Shown here: positions 548 through 24,478 of the stretch, piece after piece
How the letters are laid out: each line of letters starts with the position of its first letter
How positions within the stretch are numbered: position 1 is the first letter of the stretch
Source: Anaerolineales bacterium
GTDB lineage: Bacteria > Chloroflexota > Anaerolineae > Epilineales > JAANWY01
Assembly (NCBI GenBank): GCA_018263655.1
Contig: JAANWY010000334.1
Span: forward strand, 1-32,674
Direction: 5' to 3'
DNA: 32,674 nt
The notes under the pieces: model-generated
Seen by the model: the letters and a program-made list of their open reading frames with translations, nothing else
What the model was told of the DNA's origin: nothing
The model's database searches: none
Program-made: the position numbers and the translations under genes

Positions 548-1855
548 ATGGGAAGCAAACTGTTTGGGAAAAACGGCATTACGGTATTCAGGGCGGTTAT
601 CATCTCCGTAGTATTGGCCGTCGTGGTTATGGGATGTGCACCGTCCTCGCCGGCGCCATCACCTACGGAGGCGACGGGAGCCGGCCAAGAGGCCACAGAG
701 GCTCCTGAAGCAGCCGAGGAGGGTGTCACTCTAACCATCGAGCATTTTAGCATCATCGAAGGGACAACCTGGTCGGGCGCCCACGATCGCGCGGGAAAGC
801 GGCTCGCTGAGAAATACCCAAACGTAGAATACGTCTACCGCGAGGAAGTAGGTCCGGACCTCACCGTTCCCTACGCCGAAGAGTTGATCTCTAACGGGGC
901 CGACATTGTCGTCGGTAACGCAGAGTTCATGGGGCTGCCCCTGGAGGATATCGCTGATAAGTATCCGGACGTTTATTTCGCCTCGGTCATCGCCAGTGAT
1001 CTGAGCACGCAGCGGAACTTCATCAGGTTCTTCCCCAGGCAATATCAGGCGCTGTACCTGGAAGGCCTCATCGCTGGGGCGTTGACCGAGACCGGTAACA
1101 TCGGCATCGTCTCGGCATTCCCATCGGGCCAGGTCGCCCGGCGGCAGAACGGCTTTTACCTCGGGGTGCAGGATGCGGCCGAGATGCTTGGAAAAGACAT
1201 CACGGTGTATGTGAAGTACGCCGGCGACTGGTACCTGCCCTCGGAAGAGCGCGATATCGCGAAAACCTTGATCTCTCAGTACGACGTGGACGTCTTGACC
1301 CAGCAGACCGATTCCGGCTCCCCGCTGGACGTGGCCCAAGAAGAGGGCATCTGGTTCGTGGGGAAGGACATGGACATCGTAGGGTTCTACGGCTGGGCCG
1401 GCACGGATACGGTAGCCGTGTCCTTCGATACGCGTTGGGAAGTCCTCTACGATCAGATGACCCGGGATTGGATGGCCGGCAAGGACGATCCGGCAACGGT
1501 GCTGTACTTGGGCATGGACAGCAGTATGACGCTGGCTGACGGGACAGAGGTTGCCACTGTCGACATCATGAACGACGGCAAGGTGGGGGTTGACGCCATC
1601 AGTCCAGCGGCACGACCATCGGTGCCGGATGAGATCGTAGAACTCGTCGAGCAGAGGCGAGAGCAGATGATGAACGGCGAGTGGGATCCGTTCGCCGAGC
1701 GCGAGTTCGTGAGCAACGGAACCGGCTTTGCGCTGGAGAATTTGCCGATTCCGGATGCTGGGGCAGTGGTCAAGCCGGCCGGCGAAATGCCGTCGAGCGA
1801 GTGGCTGCTTTCACAGTTCAACTTCGACCTGGAAGGCATGCAGATATTGGAGTAA
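548..1855 (+). CDS. BMP-family ABC transporter substrate-binding lipoprotein
   Basis: 435-aa ORF with N-terminal hydrophobic stretch and lipobox-like VVVMGC, then an S/P/E-rich linker; BMP-like body (NGADIVVGNAEFMGLP, YLEGLIAGALTETGNIGIVSAFP); followed by cognate ATPase and two permeases; AGGAAAGGAG upstream. Confidence 0.9.
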   Translation: MGSKLFGKNGITVFRAVIISVVLAVVVMGCAPSSPAPSPTEATGAGQEATEAPEAAEEGVTLTIEHFSIIEGTTWSGAHDRAGKRLAEKYPNVEYVYREEVGPDLTVPYAEELISNGADIVVGNAEFMGLPLEDIADKYPDVYFASVIASDLSTQRNFIRFFPRQYQALYLEGLIAGALTETGNIGIVSAFPSGQVARRQNGFYLGVQDAAEMLGKDITVYVKYAGDWYLPSEERDIAKTLISQYDVDVLTQQTDSGSPLDVAQEEGIWFVGKDMDIVGFYGWAGTDTVAVSFDTRWEVLYDQMTRDWMAGKDDPATVLYLGMDSSMTLADGTEVATVDIMNDGKVGVDAISPAARPSVPDEIVELVEQRREQMMNGEWDPFAEREFVSNGTGFALENLPIPDAGAVVKPAGEMPSSEWLLSQFNFDLEGMQILE

Positions 1856-1856
1856 G

Positions 1857-1950
1857 ATATGGAGAATGGAAGATGGAAAATGGAGGGACGGAGAATGGAC
1901 TTCCCCTTTCCATCTTCCATTCCCCCCTTTCCATCTTCCCCCCTTCCATC
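1857..1950. repeat. Family D purine/pyrimidine palindromic repeat (ATGGAGAATGGAAGATGG / CCATCTTCCATTC)
   Basis: TATGGAGAATGGAAGATGGAAAATGG ... CCATCTTCCATTCCCCCCTTTCCATC; similar at 31397-31490. Confidence 0.75.
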
Positions 1951-2101
1951 TGCTTCTAGAAACCAGCCAAGTTTCTGGTCCCAACCTTCTTAAATATCCA
2001 ATGTCAAATATCCAGTTCCCCATATTTTGGTGGTCGAAATACCGACTTTAGCTCTGAGGATAGAACAGTTTTAACGGAGAGAATCCCAGGAGGAGAGATA
2101 G

Positions 2102-3676
2102 ATGCAAGCAGGGCTCCTGGACGGGGTACAATATGGAGACACGGTCTTAGAGGCGCGGGGAATCACCAAGCGATTCCCGGGCGTCGTCGCGAATGACCAC
2201 ATCGATTTCGAGATAAGGGCCGGCGAGATTCACGCCATCCTCGGGGAGAATGGCGCCGGGAAGACTACCCTGATGAATATCCTGTTCGGACTGTTGCAGC
2301 CCGACGAGGGCGAGCTCTATATCGGCGGTAAGAGAGTCGAGTTCAGGTCACCGCTGGATGCCATCGATCTGGGGATCGGGATGGTTCATCAAAACCGCAA
2401 ACTGGTGTCTGCTCACACGGTGATCGAAAACATCATCCTCGGGCGCCCGCGGGCTGGGACAGTCCTGAACCTGAAGCGGGCGGAGGAGGAAGTCAACGAA
2501 CTCTGCGAGAGATACGGGTTCAAGATAGACCTCCGGGCGAAAGTCTGGCAGCTTTCAGAGGGAGAAAAGCAAATCGCCGAGATCCTGAAGGCCCTCTATC
2601 GCGGCGCCAAGGTCCTCATCCTGGACGAGCCGACTTCCGCGCTGGCGCCTCCTCAAACGAAGAACCTCTTGGCATCCATCCAAGCCATGGCTAGCGACGA
2701 ACTCGCCATCGTCCCTTTCATCACCCACAAGTTACCCATCGTGCTGGAGATCAGCGACCGGGTGACGGTTTTGAGACGCGGGAAAGTCACCGCTCGCTTA
2801 GAGACGCAGGACGCAACGGAGGAGAGCCTGGCCAGGCAAATGGTGGGGCGCGAAGTCATCTTCAGGGTCGAGAGCACGAAGGTTGAGACGGGGAAACGAA
2901 TACTCCAAGTAGAAAACCTTTCCACTCGCAGCGACAAAGGGTTTCTGGCGTTGAAGGGTGTTTCGTTTTCCATTCGTGAAGGCGAAATCTTCGGCATAGC
3001 CGGCATCTCCGGCAATGGGCAACACGAGCTAGCCGAAGTGCTCGCCGGCCTCCGCAAGGCGGAGGAGGGGCAAGTGATTCTTGAAGGCCAAGACATCACT
3101 CATTCCTCCAGCTTAGAAAGATGGCGGATGGGTGTAGGCTACATCCCCTCCGAGCGCGTAGATGTGGGTTCGATCGGCGATTTCTCCCTCGTGGAAAATG
3201 TCGCGATGAACTTCTACTTCGATGACGATTTCTCCGGGCCGGGAATCGTGAATTACGGCGATATACGGCAGCTCACAGAAGAACTCATCTCCGAGTACGA
3301 TGTGGCCGCCCCGAGTCCAGACACGAAGGCTAAGAACCTCTCTGGCGGAAACCTCCAAAAAATCATCCTGGCGCGCGTGCTGGCACGCAAACCGCGGCTC
3401 GTGATCGCCAATCTGCCGACTCAGGGACTTGACGTCGGGGCGACGGAGTTTGTGCGGAACAAGCTCGTGGAGGCGAAGGAGGCAAAAGCCGGCGTTCTCC
3501 TCATCTCCGAGGATCTCGATGAGGTTTTGTCGTTGAGTGACCGGGTGGCACCGATTTATGAAGGCAAGTTCATGGGCATCATCCCGGGGGACGTGGCCAA
3601 GCTGGAGCAGGTGGGCGCGATGATGGCCGGCTTGCGACTGGAGGGAAATATAATAGAGGAGACAGGGGACACATGA
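2102..3676 (+). CDS. Sugar/nucleoside-type ABC transporter ATP-binding protein (two ABC domains)
   Basis: Walker A GENGAGKTT, first-domain LSEGEKQ signature, second-domain LSGGNLQK signature; GGAGAGATAG upstream; ATGA overlap with next gene. Confidence 0.95.
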   Translation: MQAGLLDGVQYGDTVLEARGITKRFPGVVANDHIDFEIRAGEIHAILGENGAGKTTLMNILFGLLQPDEGELYIGGKRVEFRSPLDAIDLGIGMVHQNRKLVSAHTVIENIILGRPRAGTVLNLKRAEEEVNELCERYGFKIDLRAKVWQLSEGEKQIAEILKALYRGAKVLILDEPTSALAPPQTKNLLASIQAMASDELAIVPFITHKLPIVLEISDRVTVLRRGKVTARLETQDATEESLARQMVGREVIFRVESTKVETGKRILQVENLSTRSDKGFLALKGVSFSIREGEIFGIAGISGNGQHELAEVLAGLRKAEEGQVILEGQDITHSSSLERWRMGVGYIPSERVDVGSIGDFSLVENVAMNFYFDDDFSGPGIVNYGDIRQLTEELISEYDVAAPSPDTKAKNLSGGNLQKIILARVLARKPRLVIANLPTQGLDVGATEFVRNKLVEAKEAKAGVLLISEDLDEVLSLSDRVAPIYEGKFMGIIPGDVAKLEQVGAMMAGLRLEGNIIEETGDT

Positions 3677-4788
3677 GGATCGGTGGCTGTCAATTGAAAC
3701 TCGAGCAGCGGGTGACGCTAGCCGGCTGGGAGGCAGCGCTCATGTCGATCCTCGCCATCGTCTTCGCCCTCTTCCTCTTCGGCTTCGTCTTCATCCTGGA
3801 CGACGTCGACCCGCTGTCGGCTTATCAGGAGATCTTTTCCTTCGCGTTTGCAAATCCTTATGGCCTGCCGCTGACGATCAACAGGTTCATATTCCTGTTG
3901 CTGTGTACATTCGCATTCATCATCCCGTTTAAGGCTGGGCTCTGGAACATCGGAATGGCGGGGCAGCTTTACGCCGGCGCGTTGGCCGCATTCGGTGCCC
4001 TGTTTGCCTTTGGTGGAAAAGAGCTTCCGTCCCCGGATCTTTCTCCTGGAATCGTCATCCCACTTATGTTGATGGCAGCGGCCCTGGGCGGTGCAGGGGT
4101 TGGAGCCATTGCCGGGTTTCTGAAGGGGAAGTACAACATCAACGAGATTGTGGTGACCATGATGCTGAATTTCATCGCTTTCTGGCTGGTTGCCTACATG
4201 ATCAAAGAGGGAGGTCCCTTCATGAATCCTGGCGGGAGAGGTGAGAGCTTTGAGCTCCCCTCTTCTGTATACGCGCCCTTGGTCATGGACGTCCCCTTCA
4301 CCATTTTCCTCGTCCTCGGGATAGCCGTGTTGCTGTACTTCCTGTTCGCCAAATCCAAAATCGGATATCAGATCAAGGCCCACGGTCATAACCCGGCTGC
4401 GGCCCGATATGCCGGCATCAGTACATTCAAGATACCGCTCTGGGTCTTTGTCGTGGGAGGGGGGCTGGCCGGCCTGGCTGGATATCACTATTTCGCCGCG
4501 GTTCCCGGTGTCTACAAGATCGCGCGGAACTACGGGTTTTTCGGCGATCTAGCCTTCTATGGTATCATATGTGGGCTGATCTCTCTCGGAAACCCCCTAG
4601 CCGCGATTCCCGTAACGCTGCTCTTCGGGGGATTGTCTATCGGTGGCCGATTCGTCCAGGGCAAACTCAATATGGGTTTCGGTTTGGATTATGCTCTGCT
4701 CGGCGTTTTGATGATTACGCTCGTCGCTTTCCAGTTCTTTTACCGCTATAAGCTTGTCCTGAGCCCGTCGAAGGGATCGTATTGGTAG
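3673..4788 (+). CDS. ABC transporter permease (BMP/nucleoside type)
   Basis: Multi-TM protein, NIGMAGQLYAGALAA and GKYNINEIVVTMMLNFIA typical of this permease family; 4-nt overlap with ATPase gene. Confidence 0.92.
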   Translation: MRIGGCQLKLEQRVTLAGWEAALMSILAIVFALFLFGFVFILDDVDPLSAYQEIFSFAFANPYGLPLTINRFIFLLLCTFAFIIPFKAGLWNIGMAGQLYAGALAAFGALFAFGGKELPSPDLSPGIVIPLMLMAAALGGAGVGAIAGFLKGKYNINEIVVTMMLNFIAFWLVAYMIKEGGPFMNPGGRGESFELPSSVYAPLVMDVPFTIFLVLGIAVLLYFLFAKSKIGYQIKAHGHNPAAARYAGISTFKIPLWVFVVGGGLAGLAGYHYFAAVPGVYKIARNYGFFGDLAFYGIICGLISLGNPLAAIPVTLLFGGLSIGGRFVQGKLNMGFGLDYALLGVLMITLVAFQFFYRYKLVLSPSKGSYW

Positions 4789-4909
4789 GGTATGATCATC
4801 GTTTCGGCCACTAGCTCGGCTTGGATTGCCAAATCCAAGCCATAACCGCTGGATTTGGCAATCCAGCGGGAGCAGGCGGAAGCCAATGGCCGAAACGATG
4901 ATCAAGGCT
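4788..4909. repeat. Family C palindromic element, copy 1
   Basis: ATGATCATCGTTTCGGCC ... GGCCGAAACGATGATCA terminal inverted repeats; two inner hairpins (GGCTTGGATTGCCAAATCCAAGCC, CGCTGGATTTGGCAATCCAGCG). Confidence 0.88.
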
Positions 4910-4951
4910 TATTGGTAAAGATAACAGGGAGAACGGAGGAGAAGCGATTAG

Positions 4952-5827
4952 ATGTGGGAGTTTATCGCTAGAAGCCTAGAGGCCTCGACGATTTTCACCG
5001 TTGCCGCTCTCGGCGAGCTCATCGACCAGCGCTCGGGCATTCTGAACGTTGGGATTGAGGGGGTGATGCTTTTTGGCGCCACCTTCGGTTTCATCGCCGC
5101 CCAATCTACGGATAGTTACTTGCTCGGCTTTTTGGTGGGGATTGCTATCGGCAGCCTGCTGGGCCTGCTCCACGGCTTCTTTTCCGTCACGCTGGGCGCC
5201 GATCAGGTGGTGGTCGGGATGGGCATCTGGATCTTCGGCTTCGGCCTCACGACCTACATCGGCAACCCGTACACCGGACCATTGGGGATGGAGAGGGTCC
5301 CGCCTATTTTCGGGCTTTCCCCCTTCTTTTACCTCGGAATCGTGCTGGCAGCCGTTTCGTGGTTCACGCTCTCCAAAACGAACCTGGGCCTGAGGATAAG
5401 ATCGGTGGGGGAGAACCCATCGGTCGCGGAAGTTTCGGGTATAAATGTCACGAGGACCCGCTATCTGTGTGTCACAATCGGTGGGATGTTGGGGGGGCTC
5501 GCGGGTGCAATTTACTCCCTGTTCTACAACCCGGTCTGGAACTACAATTTTCTCATGGGCTGGGGTTTCATCGCGCTGGCCCTCGTCTTTTTCTCCATGT
5601 GGAATCCTTGGGTCCTGCTGGGTGGCTCTTTGCTTTTCGGAACCTTGTGGCAACTATCGCTCAACCCACAACTCGTACTCCCCGGCCTCCTGTCCAGGTA
5701 CATCTGGCGGACGATTCCCTTTGCCGTAACCATCGGGGTACTGCTGATCATCTCGACAGCGTGGTTTCGGCGCCGATGGGGGGCAGCAAAACCTGAAGCG
5801 CTCGGAGAACCCTACGTAAAAGAGTAA
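4952..5827 (+). CDS. ABC transporter permease (BMP/nucleoside type), second subunit
   Basis: Multi-TM, LGELIDQRSGILNVGIEGVMLFGA motif typical of the partner permease. Confidence 0.93.
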   Translation: MWEFIARSLEASTIFTVAALGELIDQRSGILNVGIEGVMLFGATFGFIAAQSTDSYLLGFLVGIAIGSLLGLLHGFFSVTLGADQVVVGMGIWIFGFGLTTYIGNPYTGPLGMERVPPIFGLSPFFYLGIVLAAVSWFTLSKTNLGLRIRSVGENPSVAEVSGINVTRTRYLCVTIGGMLGGLAGAIYSLFYNPVWNYNFLMGWGFIALALVFFSMWNPWVLLGGSLLFGTLWQLSLNPQLVLPGLLSRYIWRTIPFAVTIGVLLIISTAWFRRRWGAAKPEALGEPYVKE

Positions 5828-7808: not shown

Positions 7809-7837
7809 TTGACAGGCCGGCCTTCACAGCCTATACT
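7809..7837 (+). promoter_or_regulatory. Near-consensus sigma70 promoter of the Rpn-like gene, leaderless geometry
   Basis: TTGACA (7809-7814), 17-nt spacer, TATACT (7832-7837), 7 nt, then ATG at 7845. Confidence 0.65.
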
Positions 7838-7844
7838 TGTTGGC

Positions 7845-8927
7845 ATGGGAGACATCGGCTCACCCCATGACCACTTCTTTCGCATGGCCTTTGGCCGGCC
7901 CGAAGTGGCCAGGGACTTTCTACACCACTACCTGTCACAACCCGTGCGGGACCTGGTGGACCTGTCCACGCTGACCCCGCACAAAGACTCATTTGTCGAC
8001 GAGGAGCTGCGCGACCACTTTTCGGACCTCCTGTACGAGGTCCGCTTGCACAGCGAGAAGCCGGCCTACGTCTACCTGCTCTTCGAGCACAAGAGCTACT
8101 CGGAGCCGCTGATCGCGTTTCAACTGCTACGCTACATGGTGCGCATTTGGGAAGTCGTTCCACGTGGCGCGAAGAACAAGCTGCGGTCCATCATTCCGCT
8201 GGTGCTGTATCACGGCGAGCGGGTGTGGAAGGTAAAGCTGAACTTCGGATCGTTGTTCGAGGGGCCTGAGGAGCTCAAGCGTTACTTTCCGGATTTCGAG
8301 TACCATCTCATTGATCTGTCGGACTACAGTGACGAAGAGATCATCGGTGAAGTGTTGCTACAGGCGTCGCTCCTGCTGCTCAAGCACATCTTTGACCCGG
8401 CGCTGGCGGAGCGACTGCCGGACATTTTTGGGCTGCTGCGCGAGTTGGCACAGCAGCAAACGGGGTTGGAGTATCTGTACGCAGTGTTGCGTTATGTGTC
8501 ACAAGCTGGCAAGACAGTCACAGAAGAAGACCTACGACAGGCCGTAGAGACGGCGTTTTCTAAAGAAGGAGGTGCACTGGTGGCAACCATTGCTGAACGC
8601 TGGACCGAGCAAGGATTTGAGAAGGGGATCGAGCAGGGAATAAAGCAAGGCATCGAGCTTGGTAAGCAAGAAGGGATTCAGCTTGGCAAACAAGCAGGAA
8701 GACACGAGGGGTTGTTGGCCGGCATCGAGATGGCTCTGGAATTGAGATTCGGCGAAGCGGGGTTGCAACTGCTTTCCGAGGTGCAGAAGACCGAGGACTT
8801 GGAGGCCCTACGGGCGCTCTATGCCGGCATCATCACGGCAACCACGTTAGACGAGTTGCGTGAGCGGCTTCAGTCACGGACAACGGAGCAAAAATCGCAG
8901 CCCGAAGAAGAATCTGACGAGACCTGA
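7845..8927 (+). CDS. Rpn family recombination-promoting nuclease / putative transposase (PD-(D/E)XK)
   Basis: MGDIGSPHDHFFRMAFGRPEVARDFLHHYL N-terminus, YVYLLFEHKSY, GKQEGIQLGKQAGRHEG repeats in the C-terminal region, all typical of Rpn/PDDEXK transposase-like proteins. Confidence 0.88.
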   Translation: MGDIGSPHDHFFRMAFGRPEVARDFLHHYLSQPVRDLVDLSTLTPHKDSFVDEELRDHFSDLLYEVRLHSEKPAYVYLLFEHKSYSEPLIAFQLLRYMVRIWEVVPRGAKNKLRSIIPLVLYHGERVWKVKLNFGSLFEGPEELKRYFPDFEYHLIDLSDYSDEEIIGEVLLQASLLLLKHIFDPALAERLPDIFGLLRELAQQQTGLEYLYAVLRYVSQAGKTVTEEDLRQAVETAFSKEGGALVATIAERWTEQGFEKGIEQGIKQGIELGKQEGIQLGKQAGRHEGLLAGIEMALELRFGEAGLQLLSEVQKTEDLEALRALYAGIITATTLDELRERLQSRTTEQKSQPEEESDET

Positions 8928-9025: not shown

Positions 9026-10735
9026 ATGTCAGCCACCAAAGTCGAAATCCGATCCGGCGCCTACTACGATTCCGTCGTCCTGATGCAATTGCAGGCGTCT
9101 CTGCTTGGCCTGTCTGGCGTAGTCGATGCCGGCGTCGTCATGGGCACGGCGGCCAACAAGGATTTGCTGGAGCAGAGCGGCTTGCTGCCGGCCGACGCCG
9201 AAGTGGCCAAGGCCGATGATCTGGTGATCGTGGTCAAAGCCGAGGATGATGCCGGCGCCACCTCCGCGCTGGACCAGGTAGATGAGCTGCTCACCCGCCG
9301 GCGCTCCGCCACCGAGCAAGAATACCTGCCGCAGAGCGTGGAGGCCGCCGCCCAGATGTTGCCCGACGCGCGTTGGGCGCTCGTGTCGGCGCCGGGGCGC
9401 TACGCCGCCGGCGTGGCGCGCGACGCCCTGCGAGCCGGCAAGAACGTCTTCCTCTACAGCGACAACGTCTCCCTCGATGACGAAATTGCGCTGAAGAAAT
9501 CGGCGGCCGAAAAAGGTCTGTTGGTCATTGGGCCGGACTGCGGCACGGCCATCGTCAACGGTGTCGGCCTGGGCTTTGCCAACCGCGTGCGGCGCGGACC
9601 AATTGGGCTGGTGGCAGCGTCGGGAACCGGCTTGCAAGCTGTCACGACGCGCATCCACCGATTGGGCAGCGGCATCACCCACGCCCTGGGCACCGGCGGG
9701 CGCGATCTGGCTGAGTCCGTAGGCGCGGTCACGGCTCGACAGGGACTCGATCTCCTCAGCCGAGACGCCGAGACGCAAGTGATTGTGCTGATTTCGAAGC
9801 CGCCGGCGCCCAAAGTCGCCCATAATCTGCTGCGTGTCGCGCGAGCCGTGGGGAAGCCGGTCGTGGTGGATTTCGTGGGCTACGCGCCGCCGGCCTCGCA
9901 GCAGGGCAACATCCACTTTGCCACGACGTTTGACCAGGCCGCCAAATTGGCTGCCGAACTGACTAGCTCAGCGTCCGATGAGGGGCCGGCCGCCGACCTC
10001 GACGCCGATCGCTTTGCGGCGGGGCAGCGCTATCTGCGCGGGCTCTTCTCCGGCGGCACGCTGGCCTACGAAGCGTTGCTGGTGCTCCAGGAATACGTGC
10101 CGGCCGTCTACTCCAACGTCCCGCTGGACAAGGACTATCGCCTGGAAGACCCACTGGTCAGCCAGGCGCACACTGTCGTCGATCTGGGCGAGGACGCGTT
10201 CACCGTGGGCCGGCTTCACCCGATGATGGACAACGAGCTCCGCATCCGCCGGCTCCGCCAGGAAGCTGCTGATCCCGAGGTGGCCGTGATCTTGCTGGAC
10301 ATCGTTCTCGGCTACGGCGCCCATCCCGATCCCGCCGGCGAGCTGGGGCCGGCCATCGCCGAAGTGCGGGCGCAGGCGGAGGGTGCCGGCCGGCGCCTGG
10401 AAGTCGTCGCCGTCGTTGTCGGCACGGACGAGGACCCGCAGGACTTCGAATCGCAGGTTGAGCAACTCGAAGCTGCCGGCGCCCACGTCGAGACGAGCAA
10501 TGAAGCGGCTGCGCGCTATGCCGGCCGGCTGGTCCGCGCCCGCAACACGCCCTCCGGCCTACCCCCAGTCGATCTCGCCGTCTTGCATGATCCACTGACC
10601 GCCATCAACGTCGGACTGGAAACCTTCACTGAGAGCTTGCGGGCTCAGGGTGCCCAAGTCGTGCAAGTCGATTGGAAGCCGCCGGCGGGCGGAAACGAGC
10701 AGTTGATGGCGATCTTGGAGCGAATGAAAAGCTAG
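9026..10735 (+). CDS. fdrA: FdrA family protein (AllF homologue; acyl-CoA synthetase-like fold)
   Basis: IRSGAYYDSVVLMQLQ, MGTAANKDLLE, VIGPDCGTAIVNGVGLGFAN, ASGTGLQAVTTRIHRLGSGITHALGTGGRDL. Confidence 0.92.
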   Translation: MSATKVEIRSGAYYDSVVLMQLQASLLGLSGVVDAGVVMGTAANKDLLEQSGLLPADAEVAKADDLVIVVKAEDDAGATSALDQVDELLTRRRSATEQEYLPQSVEAAAQMLPDARWALVSAPGRYAAGVARDALRAGKNVFLYSDNVSLDDEIALKKSAAEKGLLVIGPDCGTAIVNGVGLGFANRVRRGPIGLVAASGTGLQAVTTRIHRLGSGITHALGTGGRDLAESVGAVTARQGLDLLSRDAETQVIVLISKPPAPKVAHNLLRVARAVGKPVVVDFVGYAPPASQQGNIHFATTFDQAAKLAAELTSSASDEGPAADLDADRFAAGQRYLRGLFSGGTLAYEALLVLQEYVPAVYSNVPLDKDYRLEDPLVSQAHTVVDLGEDAFTVGRLHPMMDNELRIRRLRQEAADPEVAVILLDIVLGYGAHPDPAGELGPAIAEVRAQAEGAGRRLEVVAVVVGTDEDPQDFESQVEQLEAAGAHVETSNEAAARYAGRLVRARNTPSGLPPVDLAVLHDPLTAINVGLETFTESLRAQGAQVVQVDWKPPAGGNEQLMAILERMKS

Positions 10736-11415: not shown

Positions 11416-11484
11416 GCAGGCGAGGACAGAGATCGCAGGCCGAGATCAGTCAGCAAGCAGTTGATTGATGAGGAGACACAATCT

Positions 11485-12726
11485 ATGGACATAGAAGAAG
11501 CAAACACTGATGCCGCGCAACGCATGATCGAAGCCCGCCCGGTGCTGGTTGGACTGCGGAAGGCGCGGGATGTGATTCCCGGCATGCGTGACAATCTGCT
11601 ATTGCACGCCGGCCCACCCATCACGTGGGACCGCGCTTCGGGACCGCTGCGGGGCGCCATCATCGGCGCGTTGATCTTCGAGGGCCTTGCTGATGACGAA
11701 GACGCCGCTGAGGCAATGGTCGTGAACGGCGAGATCGATCTGGAGCCGTGCCACCACCACCAGACTGTCGGGCCGATGGCCGGCGTGATCTCGCCCTCCA
11801 TGTCAGTCTACATCGTCGAGAATGAGACCCACGGCAACAAATCGTACTCGAACATCAACGAGGGCTACGGCAAGGTGCTGCGCTACGGCGCCTACAGCGA
11901 GGACGTGCAAGAGCGCCTGCGTTGGATGGAAGACGTGATGGCGCCCGTCCTGGCCGATGCCATCGCTGCCAGCGAGGGAATTGACATTCGCACGTTGCTC
12001 TCGGAAGCTTTGCACATGGGTGACGAAGGCCACAACCGGAACAAGGCCGGCTCGTTACTTTTCTTGAAGGCACTCTCGCCGCATGTGGCGAAGGTCGCCG
12101 GCAGCGTCGAGACCGCTTCGGAGGTTCTCGGATTCATCGGCGACAACGCGCTGAGCGTGCTGAACCCGGTTATGGCAGCCTGCAAGGCCATGGCGGATGC
12201 CGGCCACGACGTCGAAGGCAGCACCATCGTCACCGTCATGGCGCGCAACGGCACCGACTTCGGGATTCGCATCAGCGGGCTGGGGGAGCGGTGGTTCACG
12301 GCGCCGGCCGACGTGCCAGACGGCCTCTATTTTCCGAGCTTCGAGGCGGACGATGCCAACGCCGATATTGGCGACAGCACGATTACGGAGACAGCCGGCA
12401 TCGGCGGATTCGCCATGGCAGCAGCCCCGGCCATTGTCACCTTCGTCAGCGGCACGCCCAAGGACGCCGTGAACACGACGATGGAGATGTACGAGATCAA
12501 CTACGCGGAGCACAAGCACTTCACCATCCCGCAACTCGACTTCCGGGGCACGCCCACCGGCATCGACGTACGCAAAGTGGTCGAGAAGGGCATCACGCCC
12601 TGCGTCAACACCGGCATCGCGCACAAGGAGCCGGGCATCGGACAGATTGGGGCCGGCCTGGTGCGCCCACCGATGGCGATTTTTGAAGAGGCGCTGGTCG
12701 CCTTCGCTGAAGAGTATGGATACTAA
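11485..12726 (+). CDS. DUF1116 family protein (YlbE/AllG homologue)
   Basis: GAIIGALIFEGLADDEDAAE, HHHQTVGPMAGVISPSMSVYIVEN, SEALHMGDEGHNRNKAGSLLFLKAL; GAGGAGA RBS before ATG 11485. Confidence 0.9.
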   Translation: MDIEEANTDAAQRMIEARPVLVGLRKARDVIPGMRDNLLLHAGPPITWDRASGPLRGAIIGALIFEGLADDEDAAEAMVVNGEIDLEPCHHHQTVGPMAGVISPSMSVYIVENETHGNKSYSNINEGYGKVLRYGAYSEDVQERLRWMEDVMAPVLADAIAASEGIDIRTLLSEALHMGDEGHNRNKAGSLLFLKALSPHVAKVAGSVETASEVLGFIGDNALSVLNPVMAACKAMADAGHDVEGSTIVTVMARNGTDFGIRISGLGERWFTAPADVPDGLYFPSFEADDANADIGDSTITETAGIGGFAMAAAPAIVTFVSGTPKDAVNTTMEMYEINYAEHKHFTIPQLDFRGTPTGIDVRKVVEKGITPCVNTGIAHKEPGIGQIGAGLVRPPMAIFEEALVAFAEEYGY

Positions 12727-12730
12727 ATTG

Positions 12731-12795
12731 GAGACTGGAGATTAGAGATCAGAGATTGGAGACTGTAATATCCGCAATCTCTAATCTCCAGTCTC
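12731..12795. repeat. Long inverted repeat (19-bp perfect arms) of GGAGATTAGAGA type
   Basis: Arms 12731-12749 and 12777-12795 are perfectly complementary; lies just upstream of the cyclase RBS. Confidence 0.8.
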
Positions 12796-12818
12796 TAGTC
12801 TCTATCTTGGAGGATTAT

Positions 12819-14492
12819 ATGGACAGAGAAGCATTCATCAAAACCCTAGCCGATGCCGAACTCTACGACCTGACCCAGGGGTGCAGCATCTTCACCCCTC
12901 CCTTTCCCGGTGAAAAGGCACTGGACATTCACTTCTTCAAGCGGGTGACGGGGGCCCAGGGCGGCGGTCGGGGGGCCAATGGGCAACTGATCAGCTGGAG
13001 CAACACCGCCGGCACGCATTTGGTAGGCGAGCGGGCGTTTCATTCTGCCGGCCGGGCCATCGCCGACGTCCCGCTGGAAGACCTGTGCGGTCCCGGCGTC
13101 GTCGTCGACATCTCGGACGCCGTCTCAGACTACAGTCTCTACACGCCCGAGATGATCACCAGCCGCGCCGACGTCCGCGAGGGCGATATTCTGATCATCA
13201 ACACGGGCTATCACCGCTATTCCTGGGATCAGCCCGATATCCACAACGAAAGCGCTCAGGGCGGTGTGGAGTCCAAAGAATTCGGCTTCCTGGTCCGACA
13301 TCCGGGGCCACATCCGGATTTCTTTCAGTGGGCGCTGGACATGAACCTCAAGGTGATCGGCGTCGACTGTGGCTCGGCGGAGCATCCTATGAACACCCCC
13401 ATACGCTACATGCACGAGCGGGAGTTCCAGAAGGCTGAAGCGAAGCTGGAGGCAGAGTACGGGAAATCCTGGGACGAAATGTTCCCGCCCGAAGAATACT
13501 ACGCGATGACGCACATCAAGATGCCCAAGTCGCATCTCTTGCTGGCCGAATCCATCGTGGGCGACATCGACAAATTGAACAATCAGCGCGCCTGGCTCAT
13601 GATTCAGCCTATTCCGTTCATGGAAGTCGGGACAGCCTGGTCACGCGTCGTCGCTTATCAGCCGCCGGCCAACATGGACGAAGACGCTTTCTTCGACATC
13701 ATGGGCTCAGCCGAAACGCTGGACCTCACACTGCCCTTCAGCGTTCAGACGCCGCAGTGGGCCAACTACGAGCCGCTCACCGTGACCTACACCAAGCGCG
13801 TTGGCGGCCAGGCCTTCGGGATGGGCAGAAACGGCGCGACCTGCAAAGCCAGTTTCCACCTGGCGACCCACATGGACGGCGAGAAACACTTCTGGCCCAA
13901 CGGTCGCACGATTGGCGAGGTCCCGCTGGAGCATTGGGTCGGACCGGGCGTGATTGCCGACATCTCAGACATGGTGAGCGATTCCAGCGTCTACACACCG
14001 GAGATGATCGAAAGCGTCGTCGATGTTCGCAAAGGCGATATCCTCCTCATCAAGACCGGCTGGCACAAATACGGCTGGAACAGCCCCGACTCCGACGAAT
14101 TCCGCTACATGATCAAACACCCCGGTCCGTCGCCGGACTTCTCCCAGTGGTGCGTCGATAAGGAGATCAAGTGGCTGGGCATCGACGCTGTGAGTCAGGA
14201 TCATCCGATGAACACCATTCAGCGGATCTGGCATCCCAAAACGTTCGAGGAAGCCAACCTCAAGCTCCAGGAGCAGTTCGGCAAAGATTGGGACGAGATG
14301 TATCCGCTGGATCAGTACTATCAAGACACGCATCTGAATCTCTTCCCGAAGGGCATCGTGCACGCCGAGAACTTGGGGAAGGATATTGCCGGCGCGCCCA
14401 GCGGACGGTACTACCTCGGCTGCTTCTTGCAGAAGGGGATGGAGTGCGCGTCGATGTGGGGGCGCTTCGTGGCTTTCCGTGAAGGAGGTTGA
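12819..14492 (+). CDS. Tandem-duplicated cyclase family protein (kynurenine formamidase/isatin hydrolase-like)
   Basis: Two homologous halves: ...AGTHLVGERAFHSAG...PGVVVDISDAVSDYSLYTPEMI... and ...HLATHMDGEKHF...PGVIADISDMVSDSSVYTPEMI...; GGAGG RBS before ATG 12819. Confidence 0.88.
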   Translation: MDREAFIKTLADAELYDLTQGCSIFTPPFPGEKALDIHFFKRVTGAQGGGRGANGQLISWSNTAGTHLVGERAFHSAGRAIADVPLEDLCGPGVVVDISDAVSDYSLYTPEMITSRADVREGDILIINTGYHRYSWDQPDIHNESAQGGVESKEFGFLVRHPGPHPDFFQWALDMNLKVIGVDCGSAEHPMNTPIRYMHEREFQKAEAKLEAEYGKSWDEMFPPEEYYAMTHIKMPKSHLLLAESIVGDIDKLNNQRAWLMIQPIPFMEVGTAWSRVVAYQPPANMDEDAFFDIMGSAETLDLTLPFSVQTPQWANYEPLTVTYTKRVGGQAFGMGRNGATCKASFHLATHMDGEKHFWPNGRTIGEVPLEHWVGPGVIADISDMVSDSSVYTPEMIESVVDVRKGDILLIKTGWHKYGWNSPDSDEFRYMIKHPGPSPDFSQWCVDKEIKWLGIDAVSQDHPMNTIQRIWHPKTFEEANLKLQEQFGKDWDEMYPLDQYYQDTHLNLFPKGIVHAENLGKDIAGAPSGRYYLGCFLQKGMECASMWGRFVAFREGG

Positions 14493-15883: not shown

Positions 15884-16774
15884 ATGAAACCACCGCCCTT
15901 CGAATACTTCGCTCCAACCACTATCGAAGAAGCGCTCGATCTGCTGGACGAGCACGGATGGGACGCCAAGCCGCTGGCCGGCGGCCAGAGCCTGATTCCG
16001 ACACTTAACTTCCGCTTAGCTCAGCCGGCCGTCCTCGTCGACCTGAACAACATTTCGGATCTGTTCTACGTTCGCCCCGGGATCAACGGCAGCGTCCGCA
16101 TCGGAGCGATGGCGCGTCATTCCCAGGTAGAGCGCGATGCGCTGATCGCCGAACGCGTGCCGCTGGTGCACGAGGCGATACCGCTGATCGCACACGCACA
16201 GATTCGCAATCGGGGCACGTTCGGTGGTAGTTTGGCACACAACGATCCAGCGGCGGAATTGCCGGCAGTCACACTGGCCCTGGACGGCCGGCTGCGGGTG
16301 CGGAGTCTGTCGCGGGAGCGCTGGGTGCCGGCTGGGGAGTTCTTTCTCGGCCTCTTCGCCACCGCGCTGGAGCCGGACGAGCTGCTGGTGGAAGTCGAGG
16401 TGCCGGCGCTCCCACCCCGCAGCGGCTGGGCGATCCGCGAGATGGCCCGCCGGCCGGGCGACTTCGCCCTCCTCGGCGTGACGGCCGTGATCACGTTGGA
16501 TGATGAGAATGAGTGTCAAGCGGCGCGCCTCGTCTTCTTCAGCACCGGCGGCGAGGATCCGACTGATGCACGTCAAGCCGCCGAAGTGCTCATCGGCGAG
16601 GCGCCGACGCCAGACGTCATTCGGGCCACAGCCGAGACGGCGGCCAGCGAAGACATCGATCCGACGGGCGACATTCACGCCTCGGCCGAGTACCGCCGGC
16701 ACCTGGCGAAGGTGTTGGCATGCCAGGCGTTGGAACAGGCACTGGAGCGAGTGACCACGGGCGCTCTGTACTAA
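15884..16774 (+). CDS. Molybdenum hydroxylase FAD-binding subunit (CoxM/XdhB-like)
   Basis: PLAGGQSLIPTLNFRLAQPAVLVDL and AHAQIRNRGTFGGSLAHNDPAAELPA. Confidence 0.94.
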   Translation: MKPPPFEYFAPTTIEEALDLLDEHGWDAKPLAGGQSLIPTLNFRLAQPAVLVDLNNISDLFYVRPGINGSVRIGAMARHSQVERDALIAERVPLVHEAIPLIAHAQIRNRGTFGGSLAHNDPAAELPAVTLALDGRLRVRSLSRERWVPAGEFFLGLFATALEPDELLVEVEVPALPPRSGWAIREMARRPGDFALLGVTAVITLDDENECQAARLVFFSTGGEDPTDARQAAEVLIGEAPTPDVIRATAETAASEDIDPTGDIHASAEYRRHLAKVLACQALEQALERVTTGALY

Positions 16775-17399: not shown

Positions 17400-17473
17400 C
17401 CCTCTCCCCCCTAGCCCCCCTCTCCCAACCCTGGGCGAGGGGGGAACGAAGCTCCCCTCCCCTAAATTTTGGG
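17400..17473. repeat. CCCTCTCCCC/GGGGAGGGG palindromic dispersed repeat
   Basis: CCCTCTCCCCCCTAGCCCCCCTCTCCCAACCCTGGGCGAGGGGGGAACGAAGCTCCCCTCCCCTAAATTTTGGGGAGGGGG; related element at 23951. Confidence 0.7.
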
Positions 17474-17531
17474 GAGGGGGTGTCTACTACGCAGACCTGG
17501 GGGGTGGGGGCCAGCCCACAGGAGGCCCAAT

Positions 17532-18044
17532 TTGGAGAATCTGTTTACAGTTACCGTTACAGTCAACGGCCGGCAATACGAACGAGCCATTGAGCCCCGA
17601 TTGTTGCTGAGCGATTTCCTGCGCCACGAACTCGGGCTCACGGGTACGCACGTTGGCTGCGAACACGGCGTATGTGGCGCCTGCACCATCCTCTTCGACG
17701 GCCAGCCAGTCCGCTCCTGTATCATGCTCGCCGTGCAAGCCAACGGCCACGAGATCCAAACCGTCGAGAATCTGGCGCTGGACGCAAAGCCCGAAAACCT
17801 GCACCCCCTGCAAGTCGGATTCTGGGAGGCTCACGGTTTGCAGTGCGGCTTCTGCACCCCGGGCTTCTTGATGACTCTCCTACCGTTTCTGGAGGAACAT
17901 CCCGATCCCTCGGAGGAGGAAATTCGTGAAGCGATCTCGGGGAACCTCTGTCGGTGCACTGGATATCAGAACATCGTCGACGCGGTGAAGCTGGCGGCCG
18001 GCAAGATGCAAGAGACCCAAGCAGGACCGGGAGGTGCAGCATGA
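17532..18044 (+). CDS. Molybdenum hydroxylase [2Fe-2S] subunit (CoxS/XdhC-like)
   Basis: VGCEHGVCGACTILFDG, LQCGFCTPGFLMTLLPFLEE, AISGNLCRCTGYQNIVDAV; probable TTG start at 17532 preceded by AGGAGG (17520-17525). Confidence 0.93.
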   Translation: MENLFTVTVTVNGRQYERAIEPRLLLSDFLRHELGLTGTHVGCEHGVCGACTILFDGQPVRSCIMLAVQANGHEIQTVENLALDAKPENLHPLQVGFWEAHGLQCGFCTPGFLMTLLPFLEEHPDPSEEEIREAISGNLCRCTGYQNIVDAVKLAAGKMQETQAGPGGAA

Positions 18045-20389
18045 CGACGCGCTACCTCGGCAAACCCATCAAGCGCAACGAGGATCCGCAACTACTGACC
18101 GGACAGGCCCAATTTGTGGATGATGTCGATCTGCCGGAGATGCTCCACGTGGCCTTCAAACGCAGCGACTACGCTCATGCCAGGATCGTGAGTGTGGACG
18201 TGGAAGCGGCGAAGGCCATGCCGGGCGTGATTGCGGTCTACGTAGCCGAGGATTTGGGCGATTACTGGCAGCCATCGCCGTTGCTGGTGCCTCCACCGCC
18301 GGCCCAGCACGTCGTCTTCAACGAACGCACAGCCGGCCAACTCGCCAAGGACAAAGTCCGCCTCGTCGGCGAGCCCATCGCCATGGTCATAGCGAGGAGC
18401 CGCTATCTCGCCGAAGACGCTGCTGAGACGATCTTCGTCCAATACGAGCCACTCGATCCGGTGATGGATTTGGAAGCTGCTCTTGCTGAAGATTCGGCGC
18501 TGGTGCACGAAGGTGTCGGCTCGAATGTGGCGGCGCACGTGATCCAGGAGAAAGGCAGCTACGAAACGGCGCGCGCCGAGGCCGATGTCGTCGTTTCGCG
18601 GCGTATGCTCTACGACCGAGGCGCCTCCGCGCCGATGGAGACGCGGGGCGTCGTGGCTCACTACGACGCGCTGTCCCAGGAGCTCGTCGTGTGGGATTCT
18701 ACGCAAGCCCCCATCCCCATTCGCAATGGTCTGGCGAGCATGTTGGGCCTCTCCGAGCGGCAGGTGCGTGTGATCGCGCCCTTCGTCGGCGGTGGCTTCG
18801 GGCCGAAGATCATGATGTTCTACCCCGAGGAAACACTGATCCCGTGGGCCGCTATACGGTTGGAGCGCCCGGTCAAGTGGATCGAGGATCGGCGGGAGCA
18901 CTTCTATGCCACGACGCAGGAGCGCTCCCAGCTCCACGATTCCGAAATCGCGCTTACTCGGGATGGAAAGATTCTCGGTATGAAAGATGTTTTTCTACAC
19001 GATACCGGCGCCTACATCCCCTACGGTCTAACTGTACCTCTCAATACCCAGTGTACACTCCTCGGCCCGTACGTCGTGCCGCACTACTACTCCGAATTCC
19101 GGGCGATATTCACCAACAAAACGATCGTCACGCCCTACCGCGGCGCCGGCCGGCAGCAGGGGGTGTTCGTCATGGAACGCTTGCTCGATCTGGCGGCGAA
19201 GGAGATGGAGATGGATCCACTGGAACTGCGCCGGCAGAACTTCATCCCGCCGGACCAGTTCCCCTGGAACAACGAAATCATCTATCAGGACTTCTCCGAG
19301 CTGACTTACGACAGCGGCGACTACGAGCCCATCCTGGACAAAGCGATGGACATGATCGGCTGGGAGGACTTTCGCGAGAACGAACAGCCACGCCTCCGCG
19401 CCGAGGGCAAGCACGTCGGCATTGGGCTGGTGATGTACGTCGAAGGCACCGGCATCGGGCCGTACGAGGGTGCGCGCGTCCACGTCGAATCGTCGGGCAA
19501 AGTGACGGTGGTGACGGGCGTCGGGACGCAGGGCCAGGGACACTACACCAGCTTCGCGCAGGTCGTCGCCGAGGCGCTGGGCGTCCCGCCTGAAGACATC
19601 GCTGTGACGACGGGCGATACGGGTCAATTCGATTGGGGGACGGGCACGTTCGCCAGTCGCGGGGCGGTGGTGGCCGGCTCCGCCATCCACGCGGCGGCAG
19701 AGATGGTGCGCGAGAAAGCCATCCAACATGCTGCCGAACATCTAGAGGCCCGCGAAGAAGACATCGAGCTGGCGGACGGGTTTGCACAGGTGCGGGGATC
19801 GCCCGACGCCCGCGTGAGTCTGGCGGAGTTGGCAGCCAATGCCAACCCCTTGCGCGGCGCTGTCCGTCCGGGAACTGAGCCCGGCCTGGAGGCGACGGCC
19901 TATTTCGGTCCCGAGATGGGGGCCACGGCTAACGGCGCCCACGCCATCATCCTGGAAGTCGATCCGGAGACGTTCGATGTCAAGGTTCACCGCTATGTGG
20001 TCGTTCACGACTGCGGCACACTCATCAACCCTCTGATTGTCGCCGGCCAGGTGCACGGCGGTGTGGCCCAAGGTCTGGGTAATGCCTTCTACGAGCAACT
20101 CGTCTACGACGATGCATCCGGGCAGTTGCTGAATGCCTCCTTCATGGACTACCTGCTTCCGACATCGGAGACGGTGCCGCGCGTGGAGGTAGGACACGAG
20201 GAGACGCCTTCGCCGCTCAATCCGCTGGGCGTCAAGGGGGCGGGCGAGGCCGGCGCCATCCCCGTCGGGCCTGCCTTCGCCCAGGCGATTGAGGATGCGC
20301 TGGCTGACACCGATATCGAGATTCTCGAAATCCCGCTTAGCCCGAACCGCCTGTTCGAAATTGTGCGGCGCGCAACGACGGAGACCTGA
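18041..20389 (+). CDS. Molybdenum hydroxylase large (molybdopterin-binding) subunit
   Basis: MTTRYLGKPIKRNEDPQLLTGQAQFVDDV, APFVGGGFGPK, PYRGAGRQQGVFVMERLLD, GVKGAGEAGAIPVGPA; 4-nt overlap with [2Fe-2S] subunit gene. Confidence 0.95.
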   Translation: MTTRYLGKPIKRNEDPQLLTGQAQFVDDVDLPEMLHVAFKRSDYAHARIVSVDVEAAKAMPGVIAVYVAEDLGDYWQPSPLLVPPPPAQHVVFNERTAGQLAKDKVRLVGEPIAMVIARSRYLAEDAAETIFVQYEPLDPVMDLEAALAEDSALVHEGVGSNVAAHVIQEKGSYETARAEADVVVSRRMLYDRGASAPMETRGVVAHYDALSQELVVWDSTQAPIPIRNGLASMLGLSERQVRVIAPFVGGGFGPKIMMFYPEETLIPWAAIRLERPVKWIEDRREHFYATTQERSQLHDSEIALTRDGKILGMKDVFLHDTGAYIPYGLTVPLNTQCTLLGPYVVPHYYSEFRAIFTNKTIVTPYRGAGRQQGVFVMERLLDLAAKEMEMDPLELRRQNFIPPDQFPWNNEIIYQDFSELTYDSGDYEPILDKAMDMIGWEDFRENEQPRLRAEGKHVGIGLVMYVEGTGIGPYEGARVHVESSGKVTVVTGVGTQGQGHYTSFAQVVAEALGVPPEDIAVTTGDTGQFDWGTGTFASRGAVVAGSAIHAAAEMVREKAIQHAAEHLEAREEDIELADGFAQVRGSPDARVSLAELAANANPLRGAVRPGTEPGLEATAYFGPEMGATANGAHAIILEVDPETFDVKVHRYVVVHDCGTLINPLIVAGQVHGGVAQGLGNAFYEQLVYDDASGQLLNASFMDYLLPTSETVPRVEVGHEETPSPLNPLGVKGAGEAGAIPVGPAFAQAIEDALADTDIEILEIPLSPNRLFEIVRRATTET

Positions 20390-21806: not shown

Positions 21807-23120
21807 ATGCTGATCGTTCCAGCCCCGCTGGCTAAACTCGCCGCTGCGCTGCACAGTGGCGAGTTGGAACTGACGAAACATATCGATGAGGTCTGTGATC
21901 GCGTTGAGAGCGTCGACCGGCGTGTGCAAGCGCTGCTGCCTGAGCCGGTGCGCCGCGTGCGCTTGCTGAACGAGGCGCGGCGCCTACAGGAACGCTTCCC
22001 CGATCCCACCGAGCGCCCCCCACTCTACGGTATTCTCGTCGGCGTGAAAGACATCATCCACATCGATGGGTTTCTCACGCGCGCCGGCTCGAACTTGCCG
22101 CCCACAGCGTTGGAAGGGCCTGAGGCGACTGTTGTCACGACGCTCCGGGAAGCCGGCGCGTTGATCCTTGACAAGACTGTCACGACGGAGTTCGCCTGGT
22201 TTGATCCTGGCCCGACCCGTAACCCCCACAACGTACAGCACACGCCAGGTGGGTCAAGCAGTGGTTCGGCAGCAGCAGTGGCGGCCGGGCTTTGCCCCCT
22301 GGCGCTTGGCACGCAGACCATTGGATCGGTGATCCGGCCGGCGGCCTTCTGCGGTATTGTCGGCTTCAAACCCAGCTTCGGGCGCATCCCGACGGATGGC
22401 GTGATCATGTTCTCAGAGTCAGCCGATCATGTTGGGCTGTTCACGCAGGATGTGGCCGGCATGCGGTTAGCGGCCGCCGTCGTCTGCGATGGCTGGAAAG
22501 TGCCAACACGAGATCGGAAGCTTGGGGGCCGGCCGGTGCTGGGTGCTCCGGAAGGTCCGTACCTCGAACAAGCCTCGGAGGAGGGGCTGGCTGCCTTTCG
22601 GGACCAGTTGCAGCGATTGGAAGCCGCCGGCTACACCGTGCGCCGTGTGCCGGCTTTCGACGACATCGAGACCATCAACCAGCAGCATCGGCGCATGATC
22701 GCCGCCGAAGTCGTGCAGGTACACGCCGATTGGTTCGCACGGTACGAGTCACTCTACCGACCACGCACGGCCGCCGTGATCCGCGAAGGGCAGCAGGTTA
22801 GTGCTGATGAGTTGGCGGAGGCCCGGGCTGGCCGTGAGGTGCTGCGATCTGATCTGGAGCAGCGGATGCAGAAGGCGGGTATTGTCATCTGGGTCAGCCC
22901 CGCTGCGCTTGGTCCCGCACCCCGCGGGATCGACGCGACTGGCGATCCCGCCATGAACCTGCCGTGGACCTATGCCGGCTTGCCGACGGTTACGGTACCG
23001 GCCGGCGGCGCTGAGAATGGTCTCCCCCTCGGTCTGCAGTGTACGACGTCTTTCATGACCGATGAGCGGCTCCTGGCCTGGGCGGAGTCAATCGCTGAAA
23101 CCCTCACTGATCGGAGGTAA
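21807..23120 (+). CDS. Amidase-signature family hydrolase
   Basis: YGILVGVKDIIHIDGFLTRAGS (catalytic Lys) and TPGGSSSGSAAAVAAGLCPLALGTQTIGSVIRPAAFCGIVGFKPSFGRI. Confidence 0.94.
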   Translation: MLIVPAPLAKLAAALHSGELELTKHIDEVCDRVESVDRRVQALLPEPVRRVRLLNEARRLQERFPDPTERPPLYGILVGVKDIIHIDGFLTRAGSNLPPTALEGPEATVVTTLREAGALILDKTVTTEFAWFDPGPTRNPHNVQHTPGGSSSGSAAAVAAGLCPLALGTQTIGSVIRPAAFCGIVGFKPSFGRIPTDGVIMFSESADHVGLFTQDVAGMRLAAAVVCDGWKVPTRDRKLGGRPVLGAPEGPYLEQASEEGLAAFRDQLQRLEAAGYTVRRVPAFDDIETINQQHRRMIAAEVVQVHADWFARYESLYRPRTAAVIREGQQVSADELAEARAGREVLRSDLEQRMQKAGIVIWVSPAALGPAPRGIDATGDPAMNLPWTYAGLPTVTVPAGGAENGLPLGLQCTTSFMTDERLLAWAESIAETLTDRR

Positions 23121-23545: not shown

Positions 23546-24478
23546 GTGCATCGTCTGACGTCTGGCGGCAGCCTTGCGGCTGTCACGATTGCTAGTCCCA
23601 GCGCGACGTGGCTCCAAGCGGAGCCGCGCCGTTTGTTTGTGCATTCGGCCTTCTCACGGGTTGTCAATTTGCGTAGTGCGGATGGTCAGTTTTTGACACT
23701 CTTGACAAGGGACAACGACGCTGGCCCGTTTGCGATGCGCTTGGCTGGCCGGCAGTTGCCATCGGTGCCGGTCGGCGTGCCGGCCAGTGCTGAGGGAGGC
23801 ACGATCACCCTGGGGGATTGGCAAATCGACTGGCACGGGGCAGCGGGTTGGAATCCGACGCTCGGGTCGCTGGAACAACCGTCGGATGTCTCGCTGTCGT
23901 CGCTGCTGAATTCTTTGCGTAAGGTTGATTCTATCTTTGCGGAGGCGGTGCTGCCCCTCTCCCCGAAGACTGGGAGAGGGGCAAGGGGGGAGAGGGCTCA
24001 CGCCTCTCTGTTCCACGACTACCTCGCAGTTCAGACCATGCATCTGCTGACGATGTTGTGTGCTGGCCTCCAGGGCAACGAACGCGCGCTGACCGAAGCC
24101 GTGCGTGGACTGTTAGGCTTTGGCCCTGGGTTGACGCCGGCCGGCGACGATTGCCTGTTGGGCGTGTTGGCGGCGCGGCGCATGTCGGGTGAGCCGGCGA
24201 GGATACTCAAAACACTCGTCGGTGACTTAGCTGGGCGCACAACGGCGCTCAGCGCTGCGTTTTTGCGGGAAGCGTGTAATGGGCGTTTTGCCGGCCAGTG
24301 GCATCACCTTCGCGATGCGTTGGCGGCTAAGCAGGCGGCACTGATCGAGGCATCACTCCGCCGAATCCTGGCATACGGCGCTTCCTCGGGTGCAGATGCG
24401 CTGGGCGGATGGGTTATTGGGATGTCGCTGAGGAATCCGTCTACGGAGGCTAGTGCTCCGCGTTACCTCGCCGGCTAA
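23546..24478 (+). CDS. DUF2877 family protein (YlbF/AllH homologue) carrying an in-frame repeat insertion
   Basis: LLGFGPGLTPAGDDCLLGVLAARR motif typical of DUF2877; GTG start; in-frame LPLSPKTGRGARGERA from a palindromic repeat. Confidence 0.85.
   Translation: MHRLTSGGSLAAVTIASPSATWLQAEPRRLFVHSAFSRVVNLRSADGQFLTLLTRDNDAGPFAMRLAGRQLPSVPVGVPASAEGGTITLGDWQIDWHGAAGWNPTLGSLEQPSDVSLSSLLNSLRKVDSIFAEAVLPLSPKTGRGARGERAHASLFHDYLAVQTMHLLTMLCAGLQGNERALTEAVRGLLGFGPGLTPAGDDCLLGVLAARRMSGEPARILKTLVGDLAGRTTALSAAFLREACNGRFAGQWHHLRDALAAKQAALIEASLRRILAYGASSGADALGGWVIGMSLRNPSTEASAPRYLAG
23951..23998. repeat. CCCCTCTCCC-type palindromic repeat inside the DUF2877 CDS
   Basis: Arms GCCCCTCTCCC (23953-23963) / GGGAGAGGGGC (23972-23982) followed by AAGGGGGGAGAGGG. 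Confidence 0.85.

Follow-up and report, generated by a model that had tools for sequence, protein, structure and literature searches.

Results

A single reading frame encodes two cyclase domains in Anaerolineales and beyond

A contig of an Anaerolineales bacterium carries a gene whose product holds two domains of the cyclase family (PF04199) in one chain. A preliminary description, made from the sequence alone, proposed that the N-terminal domain is a pseudoenzyme fused to an active C-terminal domain, which raises the question of what the N-terminal domain is kept for and what the fused protein does. We addressed this question with the whole contig, a stretch of 32,674 nucleotides (the window) from a 3.8-Mb genome bin made up of 401 contigs. 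Our preferred reading, to which we assign a probability of roughly 0.6, is that the protein is a fused pseudo-heterodimer in which the C-terminal half is a hydrolase and the N-terminal half its structural partner, and that in most carriers it hydrolyzes a cyclic amide or ureide to feed the AllFGH carbamoyltransferase. The gene is laid out as follows.

12819..14492, + strand: fused tandem PF04199 cyclase, 557 aa
12819..13682, + strand: N-half, residues 1-288 including the linker; putative pseudo-cyclase domain with T63, V69 and A73 replacing His, Asp and His, and with H67, H232 and E244 kept
12924..13004, + strand: beta-hairpin region of the N-half, residues 36-62; conserved glycine-rich insertion KRVTGAxGGGxGANGQ...SN
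13683..14489, + strand: C-half, residues 289-557; intact cyclase domain with H347, H351, D353, H357, H505 and E517 invariant

The frame opens with an ATG at 12819, about 8 nt downstream of a GGAGG motif, and its stop codon ends at 14492; an in-frame TTG at 12756 is a possible alternative start, but in homologs the alignment begins at residue 1 of the ATG form. PF04199 matches the protein twice, at 115 bits in the C-half and 90 bits in the N-half (gathering cut-off 23.1). The two halves had been said to align clearly, and they do, with 42% identity over 278 columns (E 7e-78); the motif letters and coordinates given earlier for both halves were also right when we reread the frame.

A scan of 85,462 species genomes returned 164 places that encode relatives, of which the best 80 were retained. 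These are 69–84% identical to the query and nearly all span the whole of it. Most, including the nearest homologs of the window's cyclase, are from Chloroflexota, and other record titles among these best 80 of 164 name Acidobacteria, Verrucomicrobia, Deltaproteobacteria and Candidatus Euphemobacter. Together with the window's protein they make an alignment of 81 distinct full-length fused sequences, so that a search for further tandem cyclases of about 550 aa, suggested in the preliminary description, yields 80 others among the best 80 of 164. In this same set the mean pairwise identity is 71% for the N-half and 74% for the C-half, and the median dN/dS is 0.17 and 0.15, respectively (476 pairs with dS below 1.5). 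From these similar dN/dS values we conclude that the N-half is maintained, not decaying, with purifying selection acting on it about as strongly as on the C-half.

The fused cyclase is associated with genes of the AllFGH carbamoyltransferase

Upstream and downstream of the cyclase gene the window contains genes for all three subunits of oxamate carbamoyltransferase, AllF, AllG and AllH, which were identified in Escherichia coli (PMC11326118), together with genes for a molybdenum hydroxylase, a transporter and an amidase.

548..5827, + strand: BMP/PnrA-type nucleoside ABC transporter (binding protein, ATPase, two permeases)
9026..10735, + strand: AllF (FdrA), oxamate carbamoyltransferase subunit (NCBIfam NF004760, 559 bits, above cut-off)
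11461..12726, + strand: AllG (formerly DUF1116), directly 5' of the cyclase (PF06545, E 3e-95)
15884..16774, + strand: molybdenum hydroxylase FAD subunit, in 55 of 80 homologous loci and always on the same strand
17469..18044, + strand: molybdenum hydroxylase [2Fe-2S] subunit, in 49 of 80 homologous loci
18041..20389, + strand: molybdenum hydroxylase large subunit, in 45 of 80 loci; 5' boundary approximate, the frame opening at 17954
21807..23120, + strand: amidase (PF01425)
23546..24478, + strand: AllH, third oxamate carbamoyltransferase subunit (PF11392, 82.9 bits)

A gene for a YhgA-like/Rpn putative transposase (PF04754) lies within this catabolic cluster at 7809-8927, and a carbamate kinase gene is found elsewhere in the source genome. 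The gap between AllG and the cyclase (12729-12806) forms a near-perfect hairpin of 7-bp GGAGAYT units (−43 kcal/mol, z −5.1). It is a dispersed palindromic repeat: a 19-mer related to it matches the genome 63 times, and the reversed control once.

Neighborhoods were counted over the homologous loci from the best 80 of 164 relatives, with adjacency to AllG scored in the 68 that had enough sequence. AllG lies directly upstream of the fused cyclase in 48 of these 68, and the molybdenum hydroxylase subunits occur in 45–55 of the 80, on the strand of the cyclase without exception. AllH was recognized nearby in the window and in one other homologous locus only, and some loci contain a xanthine/uracil permease, a BMP transporter or a carbon-nitrogen hydrolase. 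At one locus AllF and AllG are themselves fused, in a single frame of 1022 aa (L055:4902-7967). Across 60 related genomes, a fused or single form of the cyclase is present in 19 of the 20 that bear AllG and in 1 of the 40 others (Fisher p ~2e-13). The single-domain cyclases of AllFGH clusters in Anaerolineae (L093-L102, L006, L018 and others) are 42–47% identical to the C-half and share with the fused form an AllG partner and a similar neighborhood, but their motif is intact and they are unfused. Haloarchaeal single-domain relatives adjoin BMP transporters or nucleobase symporters.

The economical reading of these associations is that the fused cyclase converts a cyclic ureide or imide, by ring opening, into the ureido acid that AllFGH uses. 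None of the 60 related genomes contains AllD above its curated cut-off, weaker family members being present, and therefore oxalurate need not arise in these organisms as it does in E. coli. In a survey for allantoinase most matches fell below the curated cut-off. Parabanate is a plausible substrate: a 1965 paper cited in PMC11326118 reports, according to its title, that parabanic acid induces oxamate transcarbamylase. The need for an enzyme that hydrolyzes parabanate is weakened, though, by its spontaneous conversion to oxalurate at neutral pH (PMC5703782).

The AllFGH pathway alone does not account for every carrier, since ten of the 68 loci lack AllG and have almost no cluster genes nearby (in some Chloroflexota, Acidobacteriota and Myxococcota); for the same reason some fused cyclases would act elsewhere. 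Nine loci at which we saw no ureide-cluster genes near the fused cyclase are L056, L058, L062, L065, L066, L069, L079, L080 and L082, and a second function at such loci is possible. One could go further and place the fused protein outside the AllFGH pathway altogether, acting for example on another amide or a lactone and sharing loci with AllG only as part of general nitrogen-scavenging islands. The ten loci would fit this, as would the membership of PF04199, which includes amidohydrolases and esterases (PMC5341072), but the position of AllG directly upstream at most scored loci and its near-perfect co-occurrence with the fused or single form make it doubtful, if still the strongest competitor. 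It concerns the substrate and overlaps with the structural part of our preferred explanation, the pseudo-heterodimer, to which we turn now.

The N-half has lost three of six metal and catalytic residues and the C-half has kept all six

In the kynurenine formamidase KynB the ligands of one zinc ion are His50, His54 and Asp56, those of the other are Asp56, His161 and Glu173, and His60 is the proposed catalytic base (PMC4243253; PMC6117287). By alignment, the C-half has the equivalents of all six (H347, H351, D353, H357, H505 and E517), the first four within the motif H347-LAT-H351-M-D353-GEK-H357, which agrees with the HxxTHxDxxxH reported earlier. The corresponding stretch of the N-half reads T63-AGT-H67-L-V69-GER-A73, again as reported, and lacks the equivalents of His50, Asp56 and His60. 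It keeps three of the six, namely the equivalents of His54 (H67), His161 (H232) and Glu173 (E244), so that the two ligand positions beyond the motif are kept, and invariant, in both halves (H232/E244 and H505/E517). The description of the N-half motif as lost thus stands for the first His, the Asp and the last His, and does not extend to H67, H232 and E244.

These differences are fixed among the 81 fused proteins (the best 80 of 164 and that of the window). All 81 have T, N or S at position 63 and A or S at position 73; at position 69, 79 of them have V and none has the ancestral Asp. The six residues of the C-half are invariant in 81 of 81, as are H67, H232 and E244 of the N-half. The loss in the N-half is derived, since the motif is intact in every one of the 39 single-domain relatives that were aligned. 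With losses that are fixed and derived and a C-half that is apparently intact, the view of the protein as a pseudoenzyme joined to an active enzyme holds up in part; the supposed pseudoenzyme still keeps H67, H232 and E244 invariantly.

We compared 33 positions that are conserved both in the single-domain relatives and in the C-halves. The N-half retains 23 of them at 90% or more and falls below 90% at ten (ancestral letters Y32, H63, D69, H73, F74, G78, Y157, Q229, F236 and H242), several of which sit in or adjoin the metal motif. In a reciprocal control the C-halves keep 24 of 33 conserved positions. Judged from these alignments, the number of losses in the N-half is ordinary, and the unusual feature is which positions went.

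Since H67, H232 and E244 are invariantly kept, the N-half may have a residual metal or ligand site. In the fullest form of this idea, the three residues make up a reduced mononuclear site (2-His-1-Glu) for a metal or an effector, through which the C-half is regulated or a different reaction is carried out. All three match KynB ligands and are invariant in the 81 (best 80 of 164 plus the window's), and E188, H189, N192 and H161 of the N-half are invariant as well. KynB Glu173 lies close enough to contact either zinc ion, so that a single metal might be bound even where the Asp is missing, and the cyclase-like esterase MGS0169 is active despite a reduced motif (PMC5341072). Nevertheless, the bridging Asp, present in 39 of 39 single-domain relatives, is Val in the N-half and the catalytic His is Ala. 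Moreover, invariance is common among N-half positions in general, which makes that of these three weak evidence, and we regard a second ligand site as unlikely. A combined proposal is less likely again: that the fused and single cyclases perform the missing ring-opening step of an undescribed AllFGH route (for example, parabanate to oxalurate), in place of the AllD route of E. coli, and that the H67/H232/E244 pocket has become a regulatory metal or effector site. It is very unlikely that both halves are active, the N-half using other metal ligands such as H75; this residue is His in 73 of the 81 proteins (best 80 of 164 plus the window's), but it is not invariant and lies two residues from the position of the catalytic His, and three of the six metal and catalytic residues, including the bridging Asp, are missing.

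The fusion is widely shared and may have arisen once

That an assembly artifact or recent frame error joined two genes is negligibly probable, because 80 further distinct sequences, drawn from independent assemblies, show this fusion without interruption; we found no support for such an artifact or error, and adjacent unfused cyclase pairs in other Chloroflexota have both members intact.

In phylogenetic trees the N-halves form one clade (100/100) and the C-halves another (100/99), and the two group together at 99/97 in a tree without the distant outgroup. This grouping is consistent with a single duplication and fusion event, as far as the sequences suggest, although it may be aided by long-branch attraction (a program warning) and the alternatives are rejected weakly or not at all by the AU test (N-halves with the single-domain group S, p 0.04; C-halves with S, p 0.06). 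Derivation of the N-half from a neighboring single-domain S gene, with which it shares GANGQ...SN, is disfavored by the 99/97 grouping and the p of 0.04, provisionally given the long branches. The protein at L111, 47% identical and the best candidate for a stand-alone ancestor of the N-half, was rejected (its motif is intact and its grouping with the N-halves has p 0.033 in the AU test), and an apparent second fused tandem in genome G182 (L114) proved to be two adjacent genes, each intact.

Two adjacent, separate cyclase genes, both with the full motif, are found at L113, L114, L115 and L118; such pairs, in another Chloroflexota lineage, exemplify a gene order that could give rise to a fusion. 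At L006, L018, L026, L034, L038, L042, L068 and L071 an intact single-domain cyclase lies on the same strand as the fused gene and no more than about 5.5 kb away, abutting it at L034 and L038. Some carriers therefore have the fused and single forms in one cluster.

The best structural matches include single-domain cyclases that form homodimers

An AlphaFold2 model built with 50 homologs has a mean pLDDT of 91 and a pTM of 0.91 across both halves, the latter implying that the halves have a definite position relative to each other. The top PDB matches are hydrolases with the metal-dependent cyclase fold, isatin hydrolases and KynB (E ~1e-13 to 1e-12). Both KynB and isatin hydrolase are homodimers of single-domain subunits that share an active site, the pocket of each protomer being lined by a hairpin from its partner (PMC4243253, PMC6117287), in line with the earlier statement that cyclases are normally single-domain dimers. 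Because these homodimers share the active site, "internally heterodimerized" is the natural reading of the fused protein, and by analogy its halves would pack like the KynB or isatin hydrolase dimer. Model confidence is lowest at the hairpins (pLDDT 45–78, blocks 31–60), and the glycine-rich stretch of the N-half hairpin region has invariant columns in the 81 fused proteins (best 80 of 164 plus the window's). By the same analogy the N-half hairpin would reach into the pocket of the C-half, for which its invariant glycine-rich stretch may have been kept.

Discussion

We propose that an ancestral homodimeric hydrolase of the cyclase family was duplicated and fused, so that the dimer would have become a single covalent pseudo-heterodimer chain. 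The C-half, with the full set of metal and catalytic residues, would be the hydrolase, leaving one active site per chain and the metal count that goes with it. The N-half, deprived of the first His, the bridging Asp and the catalytic His, would be kept by selection as a structural partner that gives the dimer interface and probably a swapped beta-hairpin completing the pocket of the C-half, and it could be regulatory as well as structural and active-site-completing. In most carriers the substrate class would be a cyclic amide or ureide, whose ring is opened in a purine- or pyrimidine-derived pathway to give a ureido acid for the AllFGH carbamoyltransferase.

The protein is distinct from its characterized relatives. 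KynB (PDB 4CO9, 4COB, 4COG; PMC4243253) has its fold and all six metal and catalytic residues in common with the C-half, but it is a homodimer of ~210 aa subunits with two identical active sites, whereas the fused cyclase has two domains per chain, one with a degraded site; we rejected identity with KynB, the NCBIfam equivalog model TIGR03035 scoring 51.6 bits against a cut-off of 223. Isatin hydrolases A and B (PDB 5NNA, 5NMP, 4M8D; PMC6117287) are cyclic amidohydrolases that share the fold, have the motif HxG[T/A]HxDxPxH, and are single-domain homodimers with a swapped hairpin. They carry a GLQC/GLAS signature (PMC6117287) where the C-half instead has HAEN with E517, a KynB-like state, and the missing signature at this second-site position led us to reject identity with isatin hydrolase; unlike isatin hydrolase, the fused cyclase is also without indole-pathway context. 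MGS0169 (PDB 5IBZ, PMC5341072) is, like the N-half, a PF04199 member with an altered metal motif. It remains active with only the first two His replaced, by Gln, and with the Asp and last His kept, whereas the N-half loses both of the latter; because MGS0169 works, a reduced motif is no guarantee of inactivity in this family.

In the literature searched, which covers few subscription papers, we found no tandem or pseudoenzyme PF04199 proteins. The fused cyclase appears to be a conserved, covalently fused pseudo-heterodimer within a family known as homodimers. Active sites in the cyclase family span the dimer interface, and the wide conservation of the fused form permits comparative study; it could reveal which features a partner subunit has to retain once it has been freed from catalysis. 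Our findings also link a clade of PF04199 with the AllFGH carbamoyltransferase, the genes of which were identified as recently as 2024, and offer a concrete hypothesis for the source of its ureido substrate in organisms that, like the 60 related genomes, are without AllD above the curated cut-off.
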